64,000 nt of DNA, taken from Dermabacter hominis NBRC 106157 (GTDB lineage Bacteria; Actinomycetota; Actinomycetes; Actinomycetales; Dermabacteraceae). Below, in pieces: positions 24,051 to 31,304 of this stretch. The DNA is taken from positions 496,001 through 560,000 of the forward strand of contig NZ_BCSI01000001.1 in the NCBI RefSeq assembly GCF_001570785.1, given 5' to 3'. The position numbers were made by a program, and so were the translations under genes. Position 1 is the first letter of the stretch. Each line of letters starts with the position of its first letter. The notes beneath the pieces were generated by a model. The model was not told the DNA's origin. It searched no databases and saw only the letters and a program-made list of their open reading frames with translations.

Positions 24051-24151
24051 GCATAGAGCGTAAGCGTGAGAACGAGGAAAGCTCGGCAACCGTCGGACCT
24101 GCCAGGCCACAACCCCGCTCCACGCACACCCACGTGAAAGGAGCGGAAAAT

Positions 24152-26770
24152 ATGCAATTTTCCTTCACCCAACGCTCGCGCGAAGCCGTCGAGTCGGCAA
24201 CGCGCGCGGCGGAAGCACTGCGCAACACCAACGTCACCGGTCTGCACTTGCTCGCGGCACTGCTCGAACAAGAAGACTCAATCGCGACGGCTGTCCTCAC
24301 CGACACGGGCGTCCACATCGGCGCGCTCAAAGAGCGGATCAACCAAGAAATCCAGCGCTTGCCACGCCTCACCGGGAGCACCGACCAAAAACCCGTCTTC
24401 CAGGGCGATGGCTACGACGCACTTGAAGCCGCCGGGAAAGAAGCCGGCGCCGGCATGGGGCGAGGGGCAGAAGGGTACATCTCGACCGAGCACTTGCTCT
24501 ACGGCATCGCCAAGGCCGTAAAAACCCCTGGCGACATCCTCAAAGACTTCGGCGCGACCCCGAAAGCGATCCGCGCCAGCATCGCAAAACTCACCAAAGG
24601 AACAAGCATGAACAAAGAAAACCCGGAAGGCTCCTTCAAGAGCCTCGAAAAATTCGGGGTCGACCTCACCGCCCGCGCGCGTGAAGGCAAGCTCGATCCC
24701 GTCATCGGCCGCGATAGCGAAATCCGCCGCGTCGTCCAGGTGCTCAGCCGCCGCACGAAGAATAATCCCGTGCTCATCGGCGAGCCCGGTGTCGGCAAAA
24801 CCGCCGTCGTCGAAGGCCTCGCCCAGCGCATCGTTGAGGGAGACGTGCCCGAATCGCTCCGCGGCAAGACCCTCGTCTCGCTCGACCTTTCCTCGATGGT
24901 CGCCGGCTCGAAATACCGTGGCGAATTTGAAGAGCGCCTCAAGAGCGTCCTCGACGAAATCCGCGACTCGAACGGCAACGTCATCACGTTCATCGACGAG
25001 CTCCACACAGTCGTCGGCGCAGGCGGCACAGGCGAGGGTTCCATGGACGCCGGCAATATGCTCAAACCCATGCTCGCGCGCGGCGAACTTCGCATGGTAG
25101 GTGCGACGACCCTCGACGAATACCGCGAACGGATCGAAAAAGACCCGGCTCTCGAACGCCGCTTCCAACAGGTCTTCGTGGGCGAGCCAAGCGTCGAAGA
25201 CACGATTACGATCCTCCGCGGCCTCAAAGATAAATACGAGGCGCACCACAAGGTCACCATTTCAGACTCGGCGCTCGTCGCGGCGGCCTCGCTTTCCGAT
25301 CGCTACATCAACAGCCGCCAGCTCCCCGATAAGGCCATCGACCTCATTGACGAAGCTGCCTCGCGCCTGCGGATGGAACTCGACTCCTCACCCGTTGAGC
25401 TCGATGTCCTTCGCCGCCAGGTCGACCGGCTCAAGATGGAAGAGCTCGCCCTCAAAGGCTCGGATGATCCAGGGTCGCTCGCGCAACTCGCGAGCGTCCG
25501 CGAGCATCTCGCCGCGCGCACCGAGGAGATGAACGAGCTCTCCGCCCGCTGGGAGCGCGAGAAGTCCGGCCTCAACGAGGTAGGCGAGCTCAAGGCAAAG
25601 CTCGAGGATCTTCGCATGCAGGCCGATCGTGCCCAACGCGAAGGCGACCTGAGCCGTGCCTCGAAGATCCTTTACGGCGACATCCCCGAGCTCAAAAAGA
25701 AGCTCGTGGAACTCGAGCACGGGGAAGGTGCCGAGAGTCGAGCTGATGACGAGGAGCAAAAGCCGCTCGTCGCCGACAAGGTCGGGCCCGACGACATCGC
25801 CGGCGTGGTGTCCTCGTGGACCGGCATCCCCGCTGGCCGACTCCTCAGGTCCGAGACGCAAAAGCTTCTCGACATGGAGGACATCATCGGCAAACGCCTC
25901 ATCGGTCAGCGCAAGGCCGTCGCCGAGGTCTCTGATGCCGTGCGCCGCTCACGTGCTGGAATCGCCGACCCGAACCGTCCTACGGGATCCTTCCTCTTCC
26001 TCGGCCCCACGGGCGTTGGCAAGACCGAACTCGCCAAATCCCTCGCCGAGTTCCTCTTCGACGACGAACGCGCAATGGTTCGCATCGACATGTCCGAATA
26101 CGGTGAAAAGCACAGCGTCTCCCGCCTCGTGGGTGCGCCCCCGGGCTACGTTGGCTACGAAGAGGGAGGGCAGCTCACCGAGCAGGTCCGACGCCGCCCC
26201 TACACCGTCATTCTCCTGGATGAAATCGAGAAGGCTCACCCGGACGTTTTCGACATCCTCCTCCAGGTGCTCGACGACGGCCGCCTGACCGACGGCCAAG
26301 GGCGCACGGTCGACTTCCGGAACACCATTGTGATCCTCACGTCCAACTTGGGCGCGCACTTCCTCCAGGACGAGAGCCTCGACGACAGCGCGAAACGCGA
26401 GGCGGTCATGAACGCTGTTCGCGCCGCGTTCAAGCCCGAGTTCGTCAATCGTCTCGACGACATCGTCATGTTCGATTCCCTCAGCCGCGAGGAGCTGCGC
26501 CGCATCGTTGGCCTCCAGGTGGCGTCGCTTGCCGCGCGTCTCAAGGATCGCCGCATCACCCTCGAGGTGAGCGACGCTGCCGAGGACTTGCTTGCGGAAC
26601 GCGGATTCGACCCAGCGTATGGCGCGCGCCCGCTCAAGCGTCTCGTGCAAAAGGAGATCGGCGATGCGCTCGCGCGCCTCATCCTCACGGGCGAGGTCAC
26701 GGACGATCAGAAGGTCACGGTTGACGTGGAGCACGAGGAGGGGGCGCCGGCCCGCCTCGTCCTCCACTGA
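24152..26770 (+). CDS. clpB: Chaperone ClpB (Hsp100 disaggregase)
   Basis: Hexameric ATPase that threads and refolds aggregated proteins with DnaK. 872 aa, full length. It has a Clp N domain (1-~145), first AAA+ with GEPGVGKT at 210-217, a long coiled-coil middle domain (~400-530, [18 protein letters not shown] onward), and second AAA+ with GPTGVGKT at 618-625. No ClpP-binding IGF loop is seen, as expected for ClpB. The ATG at 24152 has AAAGGAG (24136-24142). An in-frame GTG at 24134 precedes that site and is not the start. Control is probably by HspR and a SigH-like factor. Its TGA stop is also the first three bases of a repeat. Confidence 0.97.
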
Positions 26771-26839
26771 ATTCCATAGGGGTTGTGGGGGGTTATTCGC
26801 ACCCTCCACTGGATTCCATAGGGGGTGTGGGGGTTATTC
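26763..26839 (+). repeat. Two tandem copies (A, B) of a G-rich repeat at the 3' end of clpB
   Basis: Copy A starts at 26763 and copy B at 26805, a 42-base period. Both read TCCACTG(A/G)ATTCCATAGGGG, then a TGTGGGGG block and TTATTC. The clpB stop codon is formed by bases of copy A (26768-26770). The core (26768-26794 and 26810-26835) reappears inverted next to leuS. The TGTGGGGG of copy B can pair with CCCCCGCA at 26851-26858, giving a hairpin just before the end of the accessory gene. Confidence 0.88.
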
Positions 26840-26860
26840 CTCGGGTTTAGCCCCCGCAAC

Positions 26861-28075
26861 CTACCGCATTGCCTGGCGTCGGAATGCTTCGCGAACCTTG
26901 ACGACGAGAGGCCACTCGCGAGGCTCCGGCGCCAGCGCATATGGCGATGACTTAAAGTTGACGCGATTGATGCGAGGCATCCCCGGCGCGTCTATTCGGT
27001 ATTTTGTTGGAAACTCGTCGCACCAACCGACATACGGGAGGTCATCTTTAAAAATCGGGACGACCTCCCACCCCGCCTCCCGAAGAATCTCGGCGTGGTA
27101 GTGATCGCGCGCCGCCCGTTCCGGCTCCTCGTGGGAGCTTCCCTGATACTCCACAACGACCTTCTGCGCCGGATAGACGAGATCGCGGTCGGGAATCACA
27201 ACCCCGCCGGGAAGAAGAATCGGAATGTTGAGCTTCGGTTCGGGGAGACCCGCCTCGACAAGAAGGAGGCGGCACAGAGTCTCTTGGGGCGAATCCGAGC
27301 CCACGCGAATATTGTCGAGTGCCCATCGCGTATTGGTGGCCCCGTCAATCTTTGGGTATCTCTTCCGTGCGTCCTCAAGGCAAGCAATCGTGCAGAAGGG
27401 CTGGCTTCGCCCCTCGTAGTTCGGGCGCGGTCGACGCACGAGATAGTCGCCTACGGCCACGAGCTCAAACGGGTTCAGCACCGTCGCAAGATCAAGAAAC
27501 GTTCTCTCGCGGGACATGATCCTGAGCGGCTTTGTCCACAAGGGCGCGGTGGAGGGGTGCCACGGCATTCCGACGCTTGCTGAGCCACCGTCGGCACCTA
27601 AACCCGCACAAATCTGCTCGGGCCCCACAACAATGACATCGTCGCTTGCCAAAAGATGCTGCCGCCACTCGGCACATGGCTGCGTGGGGGAGCGGTGATG
27701 GTAGGGGTAAACAAAGTTCGGAAGGCTATTGAGTTTTTCGGGTATGCGCGCGTGAGCGCCTTGGATACGCGCCAGTTCCGGAGCTGGTGGGCATTCCTGC
27801 GCGAGGAATCTGGCGGGTAGAGGAAATCCCCACAGGAGTGCAGCAGAAATCTGAGAGAGTGCGGCTGTGGGGCATGCGTGAGTCACGATGCGCGCGTAGT
27901 CCCAACTTGTGGGCGAAAGATCCGTCGGAGCATAGATTCCCCGGTGGAGCTGCTGATAACTCGGCCCGCGGAGCTGATCGCGCGTGACAGCCTGCGCATA
28001 GGCCTCTTGGGACGTGAATGCGGTGTGCGCGAGGGCGGCCGGGATAGGAGCTCGGGTGCGTGCCATGGCTTGCAT
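26861..28075 (-). CDS. Accessory protein with AbiEi-like N-terminus and DUF559/PD-(D/E)XK-like C-terminus
   Basis: 404 aa. The N-terminal ~90 residues (AHTAFTSQEAYAQAVTRDQLRG, YQQLHRGIYAP, AALSQISAALLWGFPLP) resemble the AbiEi-type antitoxin/winged-helix region found ahead of DUF559 domains in actinobacteria. The C-terminal part has the order of a Vsr/RecB-like nuclease core: Glu265 in SPQETLCRLLL, Asp298 in PDRDLVYP, then Glu309-Tyr-Gln311 in VVVEYQGSSH, and AARDHYHAEILREAGWEVV. Biochemical activity is unknown; no toxin partner lies beside it. Base use looks less GC-biased than its neighbours. It is alone between convergent clpB and leuS, bounded by inverted repeats, so it appears acquired. 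The start could be ATG 28075 or 28066; neither has a clear ribosome site. Confidence 0.78.
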   Translation of the reverse strand: MQAMARTRAPIPAALAHTAFTSQEAYAQAVTRDQLRGPSYQQLHRGIYAPTDLSPTSWDYARIVTHACPTAALSQISAALLWGFPLPARFLAQECPPAPELARIQGAHARIPEKLNSLPNFVYPYHHRSPTQPCAEWRQHLLASDDVIVVGPEQICAGLGADGGSASVGMPWHPSTAPLWTKPLRIMSRERTFLDLATVLNPFELVAVGDYLVRRPRPNYEGRSQPFCTIACLEDARKRYPKIDGATNTRWALDNIRVGSDSPQETLCRLLLVEAGLPEPKLNIPILLPGGVVIPDRDLVYPAQKVVVEYQGSSHEEPERAARDHYHAEILREAGWEVVPIFKDDLPYVGWCDEFPTKYRIDAPGMPRINRVNFKSSPYALAPEPREWPLVVKVREAFRRQAMR

Positions 28076-28211
28076 GCTATGGATCGGCAGCTGTCACCAT
28101 GCGCGCCCCTGGGCGGAGTGGGAGAAACCAAGAAATGTGGAGCGCGAGCCGCCTCAGAGCGTTCGGCGAGAGTCGCTGTTCCGTCTCGAAGTGTCCCTCA
28201 CATCCAAGAAG

Positions 28212-28247
28212 TGTGGGGGCCTGAGTCACGCGACTCAAACCCCCACA
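28212..28247 (-). terminator. Composite hairpin within repeat copy C
   Basis: On the minus strand an 8-bp arm TGTGGGGG pairs with CCCCCACA. A 2x2 mismatch follows, then a 6-bp inner stem TGAGTC/GACTCA around GCGT. It lies downstream of leuS in its direction of transcription, with no T-run, so terminator function is likely but unproven. Confidence 0.55.
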
Positions 28248-28318
28248 ACCCCTATGCAATCCAGGGAGAGGGAGCCTGAGCCACGCGACTCAAACCCCCA
28301 CAACCCCTATGCAATCCA
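28220..28318 (-). repeat. Two tandem copies (C, D) of the G-rich repeat at the 3' end of leuS
   Basis: Copy D (28275-28318) starts one base after the leuS stop codon; copy C is at 28220-28263. Read on the minus strand they begin TGGATTGCATAGGGG, then TTGTGGGGGTT as in copies A and B. Each continues into a short palindrome TGAGTC-GCGT-(A/G)CTCA. The cores are 28238-28263 and 28293-28318. They face the clpB copies, so the accessory gene is bracketed by inverted pairs. Confidence 0.9.
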
Positions 28319-28319
28319 C

Positions 28320-31304
28320 TTAGGAGAGGACGATATTGACGAGCTTCGGTGCGCGCACGATCACCTTACGAACCTCGTGGCCCTCGATGAGTTTTTGCAC
28401 GCGCTCCTCGGCAAACACTGCCTTCTCGAGGTCCTCCTCCGAGATCTCCGGATCAACTTCGATGCGGTGGCGAACCTTGCCCTTGACCTGGATGACGCAC
28501 GTGACGGCGTCGGCAACGAGGTACTGCGGATCCGCGACGGGGTAGGAAGCGCGTGCGAGCGACTCGTCGTGGCCGAGCTTCGCCCACAGTTCCTCGGCGA
28601 GGTGCGGGGCGAACGGCGAGACCATGAGCACGAGAGCCTCGACGGCCGATCGCGGGGCGCCGTCGGCGTCGCTCGCGACCTTCGTGAGGTGATTGACGAG
28701 CTCGATGAGGCGCGCGATAGCGGTGTTGAAACGCATGTGTTCCATGTCGGCGCTCACCGCGTCGATGGTCTTATGCACGGCACGCAGCGTATCCACGCTG
28801 GCCTCGGCGTCGCTCACGACGCACTCACCGGTCTCTTCCGATACCGCGAGGCGCCACAGACGCTGAAGGAAGCGTTGCGAGCCAACGACATCGCGCGTGT
28901 TCCAGGGGCGCGACAGATCGAGCGGCCCCATCGACATTTCGTAGACGCGGAACGTGTCGGCGCCGAACTCGTCGTACATGTCGTCCGGGGTCACGATGTT
29001 GCGCAGGGACTTGCCCATTTTCCCGTATTCCTGGCGCACCGGCTTGCCGTCGTGAGTGAAGGTACCGTCGGCTTCCTCGACAACCTCGGAGGCGTTGACG
29101 TAGACGCCGCGCTCGTCGCGGTACGCGTAGGCCTGCACATACCCCTGGTTGAACAGGGTGTGGAACGGCTCTGCGCTCGCAAAGTAGCCGCGGTCGAACA
29201 GGACCTTGTGCCAAAAGCGCGCGTAGAGCAGGTGGAGAACGGCGTGCTCAACACCGCCGACGTACAGGTCGACACCGCCCGTGGGCGCGCCTTCGCGCGG
29301 GCCCATCCAGTACTGCTCGTTGGCGGGCGCGGAAATCTGTTCGTCGTTCGTGGGGTCCGTGTAGCGGATTTCGTACCACGAAGAGCCTGCCCACTGAGGC
29401 ATGACGTTCATTTCGCGGCGGTAGCGCTTCATGCCGTCGCCAAGATCAAGCTCGACCCAGGCCCAGTCCTCCGCGCGTGAGAGCGGGGTCTGCGGCTCGG
29501 TGTCGGCGTCTTCCGGGTCGAACGTCTTGGGTGAGAAGTCGTCGAGTTCGGGCAGCTTAACGGGAAGCTGATCGAACGGGAGCGCGATCGGGACTTCGGG
29601 TGCGTCTTCCGCGTACACGATCGGGAAGGGTTCGCCCCAGTAGCGCTGGCGACTGAAAAGCCAGTCGCGCAACCGGTACGTCGTCTTTGCGTGGCCGAAG
29701 CCCTTCTTCTCGGCGAATTCGGTCGCGGCGGCGATCGCCTCGTCCTTGCTCATGCCGTTGAGATCGAGCTCGTCGCTGCGCGAATTGATCTTCTTCCCGT
29801 CGCCCGTGTAGGCCTGTCCCTCTTCGAAGTCGGCGGGCGGCTGAACGGTGCGGATCACGGGAAGCTCGAAAGCGCTCGCGAACGCGTAGTCACGTTCGTC
29901 TTCGGCGGGAACGGCCATGATGGCGCCCGTGCCGTAGCCCATGAGTACGTAGTCGGCGGTGAACACGGGAAGCGCACGGCCGTCCATCGGGTTCACGGCG
30001 AAAAGGCCCGTGAACACTCCCGTCTTTTCGCGCGAATCGGCAGTGCGCTCGGTGTCATCGAGTGCGGCGGCACGTTCTTTGTAGGCGGCGACGGCCTCGC
30101 GCGGGCTCGACGCTCCGCCGGTCCACGCGGACTTCGTGCCTTCGGGCCACGCCTCGGGAAGAGCGCTGACGTCAGACAGCAGCGGATGCTCGGGCGAGAG
30201 CACCGTGAAGGTCGCGCCAAACAGCGTGTCAACGCGCGTCGTGAAGACGTCGAACGTGGAATCGGCGAAGGCTGGGCAACCGTCGGAATCCAGCGTAAAC
30301 GTGACCTGCGCACCGCGCGAGCGGCCGATCCAGTTCCGCTGCATGGACTTGACCGATTCGGGCCAGTTGACGGTGTCGAGATCCTCGAGAAGTCGATCGG
30401 CATACGCGGTGATGCGCAGGTTCCACTGGCGCAGGCGGCGCTTGAACACGGGGAAGTCGCCGCGCTCGGATCGGCCCTCGGCCGTGACTTCTTCGTTCGC
30501 GAGCACTGTGCCGAGGCCGGGGCACCAATTGACCGGCGTGTCGCTGACGTAGGCGAGGCGGAAGCAGTCGACGAGCTCCGTCATCTCCTCCGGCGTGTAC
30601 TGGATGAGGAAGTCGAAGGGAGTATCGTGCTCGGGATTCCAGTGCTCGTGATCCGGCTTGCGGTCGTACCACATCTGCGGAATGTCGATGCTCTGCTGCT
30701 CGGCTAGGGCGTACGGATCAACGTCGCGATCCTGGATCGCACCCTTGAGTTCCGAAATGGGTCGTGCAGAGCCGCGTGTGCCGTCAGCCTTCACGAAGTT
30801 CGGGTCGTACCACGAGTCGAACAACTGGAGGAAGACCCACTGTGTCCACTTGACGAAATCGAGGTCGGTTGTGCGAAGCGAGCGGCGCGAGTCGTGCGAA
30901 AGGCCCAGGCGGAAGAGCTGACGGGCCATGTTCGCAACGTTTTCGTCGGTCGTGACGCGCGGGTGGGTGCCGGTTTGAATCGCGTACTGCTCCGCGGGCA
31001 GGCCGAAGGCGTCGTAGCCCATCGTGTACAGGACATTCTTGCCGAGCATGCGGTTGTGGCGCGCGACGGCGTCGGTCGCGATGTAGCCAAGCGGGTGGCC
31101 CACATGCAGTCCCTTGCCCGAGGGGTAGGGGAACATGTCCATAATGAACATCTTCTCGCCGAGTTCTTCGGCGCTGCGCCCATCGGAGAGCTCGCCCACG
31201 GGATTGACGGCGTTGAAAGTACCCTGCTCGAGCCACAGCTTCTGCCATTTCTGCTCGATCTGTCCCGCGAGTTCGGCGGTGTAGCGGTATGGGGCCTCAG
31301 CCAT
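28320..31304 (-). CDS. leuS: Leucine--tRNA ligase
   Basis: Class Ia synthetase charging tRNA-Leu, 994 aa, long as in actinobacteria because of insertions in the first half. Motifs are HVGH (67-70) in KGLHVGHPLGYI, the CP1 editing domain in the middle (TTRVDTLFGATF, GYGTGAIMAVPAEDERDY), and the KMSKS-loop variant KMGKS (762-766). The anticodon-binding helix bundle and a C-terminal domain ending VIVRAPKLVNIVLS follow. The ATG at 31304 has AAAGGGAC upstream. It is convergent with clpB, with the repeat-bounded accessory gene between them. Confidence 0.97.
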   Translation of the reverse strand: MAEAPYRYTAELAGQIEQKWQKLWLEQGTFNAVNPVGELSDGRSAEELGEKMFIMDMFPYPSGKGLHVGHPLGYIATDAVARHNRMLGKNVLYTMGYDAFGLPAEQYAIQTGTHPRVTTDENVANMARQLFRLGLSHDSRRSLRTTDLDFVKWTQWVFLQLFDSWYDPNFVKADGTRGSARPISELKGAIQDRDVDPYALAEQQSIDIPQMWYDRKPDHEHWNPEHDTPFDFLIQYTPEEMTELVDCFRLAYVSDTPVNWCPGLGTVLANEEVTAEGRSERGDFPVFKRRLRQWNLRITAYADRLLEDLDTVNWPESVKSMQRNWIGRSRGAQVTFTLDSDGCPAFADSTFDVFTTRVDTLFGATFTVLSPEHPLLSDVSALPEAWPEGTKSAWTGGASSPREAVAAYKERAAALDDTERTADSREKTGVFTGLFAVNPMDGRALPVFTADYVLMGYGTGAIMAVPAEDERDYAFASAFELPVIRTVQPPADFEEGQAYTGDGKKINSRSDELDLNGMSKDEAIAAATEFAEKKGFGHAKTTYRLRDWLFSRQRYWGEPFPIVYAEDAPEVPIALPFDQLPVKLPELDDFSPKTFDPEDADTEPQTPLSRAEDWAWVELDLGDGMKRYRREMNVMPQWAGSSWYEIRYTDPTNDEQISAPANEQYWMGPREGAPTGGVDLYVGGVEHAVLHLLYARFWHKVLFDRGYFASAEPFHTLFNQGYVQAYAYRDERGVYVNASEVVEEADGTFTHDGKPVRQEYGKMGKSLRNIVTPDDMYDEFGADTFRVYEMSMGPLDLSRPWNTRDVVGSQRFLQRLWRLAVSEETGECVVSDAEASVDTLRAVHKTIDAVSADMEHMRFNTAIARLIELVNHLTKVASDADGAPRSAVEALVLMVSPFAPHLAEELWAKLGHDESLARASYPVADPQYLVADAVTCVIQVKGKVRHRIEVDPEISEEDLEKAVFAEERVQKLIEGHEVRKVIVRAPKLVNIVLS

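Follow-up and report, generated by a model that had tools for sequence, protein, structure and literature searches.

The clpB–leuS junction and its accessory gene

The window, a stretch of 64,000 nucleotides of the Dermabacter hominis NBRC 106157 genome (G000, 2.16 Mb), comprises a junction between clpB and leuS at which two repeats are located 3' of clpB and two inverted repeats 3' of leuS (Table 1). This arrangement, first reported in the preliminary description, is confirmed: all four repeats match the core, a number reached by none of 100 shuffles (shuffle mean 0.01). As was also reported there, the stop codon of clpB lies inside copy A, being the TGA (26768-26770) of its CTGAATT motif, and copy D ends at 28318, with the leuS stop codon starting at 28320. 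The single gene between them had been described as bracketed by inverted pairs. Four repeats do flank it, but a decayed fifth copy is present at its own 3' end, with a score that 0.9% of random segments equal. The order at the junction is leuS–(D, C)–gene–(decayed copy/B, A)–clpB. Elements thus lie close to each gene end, as opposed to one gene inside two symmetric ends. The 12-nt arm with which copy B pairs belongs to the 3' end of the accessory gene, and this pairing is retained in all three species that bear the repeat (G000, G001 and G003).

Table 1. Features of the clpB–leuS junction, in positions of the window.
Feature	Position	Strand	Core	Remarks
clpB	24134-26770	+		Stop TGA inside copy A; ORF list; ClpB orthologues in relatives (tblastn)
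Element copy A (TGAATTCCATAGGGGTTGTGGGGGGT)	26768-26793	+	26775-26793
Element copy B	26810-26835	+	26817-26835	Tandem, 42 bp past A; A/B duplication in G001, not in G003
Hairpin, G-rich arm of B with AGCCCCCGCAAC	26825-26860	+		Equivalent 12-nt stem retained in G001 and G003
Decayed inverted fifth copy	26851-26870	-		Weak; takes in the stop codon and 3' end of the accessory gene
Accessory gene, 404 aa	26861-28075	-		AbiEi-like N-terminal part; Vsr/DUF559-like PD-(D/E)XK C-terminal part
Hairpin from the G-rich arm of C (GTGGGGG...CCCCCAC)	28213-28246	-		Retained in 3/3 species
Element copy C	28238-28263	-	28238-28256
Element copy D	28293-28318	-	28293-28311	One base from the leuS stop
leuS	28320-31304	-		ORF list; orthologues in 35/35 genomes searched

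The accessory protein shares an AbiEi-like N-terminus and a Vsr-like nuclease C-terminus with the actinobacterial AbiEi/DUF559 (Vsr-like) single-gene family. Its predicted model exhibits a mean pLDDT of 77; Foldseek matched the AbiEi-like N-terminus to 6y8q (E 6.5e-4) and also returned 3r3p and 1vsr with a probability of 0.95-0.97, but with E > 0.1. In the structural model, the C-terminal part resembles Vsr and the homing endonuclease I-Bth0305I, and residues E265, D298, E309, H315 and D324 are conserved in the nuclease part. The DUF559 score (18.4) is below the Pfam cut-off (20.6), and the gene was unmatched by PADLOC. As its neighbours are clpB and leuS, a partner toxin gene is not apparent. 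A broken second AbiEi/DUF559-like copy, with an interrupted frame, is located at G000:C1:67142-67649, about 5 kb from an element.

The accessory gene is present in all three repeat-bearing species, with 85-90% identity, and none of them exhibits an empty clpB–leuS site. The only named match of the protein is 90% identical and comes from a record labelled Dermabacter indicis, whose sequence matches G003 at this locus. Homologues are widespread in the family. The gene is not at the clpB–leuS junction of all relatives: in G002, clpB and leuS are direct neighbours whose stops almost touch, and in G018 and G005 they adjoin with ordinary spacers between them. Its presence in the three species, together with these gene-free junctions, points to its probable gain on the Dermabacter branch. 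The gene had been proposed to have arrived as cargo; the gain is retained, but the gene is most plausibly a separate acquisition at the junction, rather than cargo of a mobile unit ended by the repeats.

A repeat family at gene ends in Dermabacter

The core is not unique to the clpB–leuS junction. The repeat, of about 27 letters, occurs just 3' of about two dozen genes in Dermabacter, and its consensus comprises a C/T-rich tract followed by the core YGRATTSCATAGGGGTTGTGGGGGTTW. Allowing up to three mismatches in the 19-bp core, we found 42 sites in G000, as against one for the reversed control, and a profile built from 59 copies gave 43 copies in G000, 46 in G001 and 38 in G003. By pattern or profile, no copy was found in 19 of the 20 other relatives searched, Brachybacterium among them; the remaining one, G036, yielded two weak profile matches at chance level (E=0.08). 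G002, which belongs to the same GTDB genus, is devoid of copies in the profile search, as are the other members of the family. Viral contigs gave no exact match to the element, and we found no description of the family in the open-access literature.

Most copies occupy identical junctions in G000, G001 and G003, with a limited turnover. Copies A and B form a tandem in G000 and G001 and correspond to a single copy in G003, which is a clean one-unit difference, while the C/D pair of G000 and G003 is a single copy in G001. One junction carries an element in G001 and G003 that is absent from G000, and at the junction ahead of a groES-like gene that has a CIRCE-like site (both named from sequence alone) G003 retains the opposite arm to that of G000 and G001. 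Along the single contig of G001 (G001:C1), copies are densely packed from 0.37 to 1.4 Mb, and few lie in the last megabase.

The placement of the copies is strongly polarized, although they do not always sit at stop codons. Among the 105 leading copies (second tandem copies being excluded), 61 begin no further than 45 nt from a stop codon on their own strand, the stops having been verified by reading frames confirmed through substitutions at third codon positions. In 17 of these 61, the element itself contains the stop, either as the TGA of TGAATT (11 times) or as the TAG of CATAG (six times). For single copies, the front faces a same-strand stop in 41/67 and the back an opposite-strand stop in 7/67. 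The genes served include clpB, leuS, polA, gnd, pgm, pdxK, qcrB and kbl, and several copies lie directly 3' of tRNA-Gly genes. The exceptions are copies upstream of gyrB, menC and purF and between pgi and pfkA. The idea that the sense arm alone is retained is weakened by the groES-side, menC, gyrB and pgi-pfkA copies.

Two of these locations exhibit further features. At menC, an inverted element extends over the probable gene start (L035:3279, L108:2592, L136:2546); the ATG in its CTATGCAATTC could be the menC start codon in G000, and G001 and G003 have an element at this position too. The tRNA-Gly(ccc) gene adjoins its element in G000 and G001, but in G003 about 2.2 kb lie between them (L142:146-2423, L132:4771-5001). 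Over its first 155 bp, this insert is identical to the sequence after tRNA-Leu(taa), which suggests a mobile element that would insert at tRNA 3' ends.

The 27-bp core is more conserved than its surroundings, with 92.6% identity between orthologous copies, compared with 70% for the next 40 nt, 74% for the spacer between stop and element and 87% for the preceding gene. The core value is somewhat inflated, since copies were gathered by similarity, yet a counterpart exists for nearly every copy of G000. The G-rich half often constitutes one arm of a hairpin and, with the next 50 nt, folds better than shuffles, with a mean z of -2.47 for inverted pairs and -1.48 for the rest; z is below -2 in 62% and 29% of these, respectively, compared with 6% of controls. 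In some copies the C-tract and the G-tract of one unit pair, but strong hairpins usually need a downstream partner arm, and a run-length stem test on single copies gave no gain over shuffles. The U-tract is mostly missing from the hairpins. A classical intrinsic terminator was rejected, as hairpins are present but the terminator scan found no T-run site at these repeats.

Inverted copies are often spaced by 33 or 42-43 bp and tandem copies by 33-75 bp, and the spacings fall near multiples of 10.5-10.8 bp (best period 10.6-10.8). At a period of 10.5, phasing reached R 0.56 for tandem copies (n=20, jitter p 0.0014) and R 0.66 for inverted copies (n=9, p 0.017), in an exploratory test made after the spacings had been seen and on loci that are not fully independent.

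Known systems and alternative explanations

The closest parallel is found in the REP/BIME repeats of enterobacteria and pseudomonads, which also comprise tens of intergenic copies near stops, in tandem and inverted groups with hairpin potential. To our knowledge, the G-rich sequence of the Dermabacter element is unlike that of known REPs. It also differs in its strong same-strand placement after genes, and no Y1/RAYT transposase was found: the Y1 (TnpA_REP) search was negative in all 19 genomes and positive in 5/14 control genomes. A RAYT-mobilised REP is thus excluded by the features tested. In E. coli, REPs are reported to be able to reduce translation when they lie no more than 15 nt from a stop codon (PMC12306157). 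MITEs share with the element a short length, inverted arms and a lack of coding capacity, whereas many Dermabacter copies are single, with gene-end polarity. A MITE was rejected as well, given that the Y1 transposase search revealed no parent transposon and that no target duplication was seen by eye in the flanks of palindromic pairs. A further parallel is offered by TRIT, the conserved-sequence terminator motif of Mycobacterium (Gardner et al. 2011, RNIE; cited in PMC3526491). TRIT is reportedly an actinobacterial family of hairpins that share a sequence and lie just past gene ends. The Dermabacter element matched no Rfam family at gathering score, and a low threshold returned nothing but chance-level microRNA matches to the palindrome.

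The same features bear on the possibility of a decaying MITE or REP-type selfish element whose spreading transposase has gone from these genomes. Its narrow lineage, the recurring spacing of its inverted 27-bp arms and the junction at which it is present or absent are in line with such an origin; the missing transposase and target duplications, the polarized single copies and a core more conserved than the neighbouring genes make it improbable. The preliminary description had instead regarded the repeats as marking a neutral insertion point, used by recombination or a trans-acting element. They are indeed dispersed at gene 3' ends, and the content of some junctions varies. Between facing copies, the ABC-transporter junction measures 0.07 kb in G003, 0.27 kb in G000 and 2.1 kb in G001, and the copC junction 3.7 kb in G000, 0.1 kb in G001 and 1.9 kb in G003. 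In G001, the sequence inside the pdxK junction (L114) is found a second time, in inverted orientation, at polA-rpsA (L117); the two are 89-96% identical, and the homology starts at the outer ends of the elements. Also in G001, a family of secreted PKD-domain genes has its three loci between elements. These observations would be expected if cargo landed between copies or swapped through them by short-homology recombination. Nevertheless, G002 exhibits four PKD-family copies without elements, and by hand count, based on simple open-frame gene calls, 5/22 element junctions differ in gene content between G000 and G001 (including copC, ABC-transporter and polA-rpsA), and convergent junctions that lack elements change about as often (6/36; p = 0.73). 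About 17/22 element junctions show no cargo change, and most copies, which are vertically inherited, enclose no cargo. A comparison of element junctions with all junctions was borderline (p = 0.057). The insertion-point reading thus has partial support only, and we regard insertion or recombination points as an unlikely explanation of the elements. A combined function, in which gene-end signals would also serve as landing or exchange points for single-gene swaps between facing gene ends, in a recombinase-free, cassette-like manner, appears still more doubtful; if true, accessory genes would be exchanged without a dedicated integrase. PKD-domain secreted genes are found at several element junctions of G001 and G003 (L117:2689-3714, L109:3334-4404, L124:377-2117 and L114); the G003 gene adjoins a DUF6318 gene, and one G001 copy is split by MFS/TetR-like genes.

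The resemblance of the accessory protein to I-Bth0305I in the structural model, and its position as the sole gene at a site where relatives have none, raise the idea of a homing-type nuclease that would target the element or the clpB–leuS junction and would have placed itself there. This is highly implausible, as matches of the protein occur in 29/35 genomes, nearly all of them element-free, and the clpB and leuS elements are undisrupted by the gene. The main rival to a role at transcript 3' ends is a DNA-level one, with elements acting as sites for a double-stranded DNA-binding protein, related to the nucleoid or to topoisomerase, at gene ends where supercoils collide, the hairpins being a by-product of inverted pairs. 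BIMEs bind gyrase and IHF in E. coli. The helical phasing of neighbouring copies suggests such a role and argues against a 3'-end signal, within the limits of that post hoc test; moreover, the exact core is retained even without a partner arm, and some copies do not follow a gene. In contrast, a DNA-binding site would not need the same-strand bias or the overlap with stop codons, and we consider this role possible, though somewhat unlikely.

A candidate 3'-end signal

The four repeats at clpB–leuS are ordinary members of the family and look like terminator-like signals at gene ends, beside which a gene settled later, rather than like the ends of a mobile element. We favour, with modest confidence, a Dermabacter-specific, REP-like and terminator-like 3'-end element, with the accessory gene as a separate gain into the junction. 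Action on transcript 3' ends appears most likely from the shared junctions, the conservation of the core, the same-strand stops, the tRNA-Gly ends and the folding z values, while the scarcity of U-tracts, the null result of the stem test, the copies upstream of genes and the opposite arm on the groES side weaken it. The element, at the 3' end of a gene or tRNA, would supply one hairpin arm in the transcript; the resulting signal may stop transcription, protect mRNA 3' ends, or both. Palindromic pairs may serve two facing genes or persist as hairpins. The copies probably arose on the Dermabacter branch, would now be inherited mostly vertically under constraint, and their groups could grow or shrink via tandem duplication. 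The analysis establishes the dispersal, lineage limits, position, conservation and hairpin potential of the repeats, as well as the gene gain, whereas the transcriptional role is inferred.

We place the element, as a lineage-limited addition, among the gene-end hairpin repeats that are REP-like in the broad sense. The human skin genus Dermabacter thereby has its own family of gene-end repeats, with stop codons supplied by the repeat and a near-helical spacing. This family lends itself well to the question of whether such repeats function at the level of RNA, at 3' ends, or of DNA, through protein binding, and also whether gene-end repeats guide the settlement of accessory genes.
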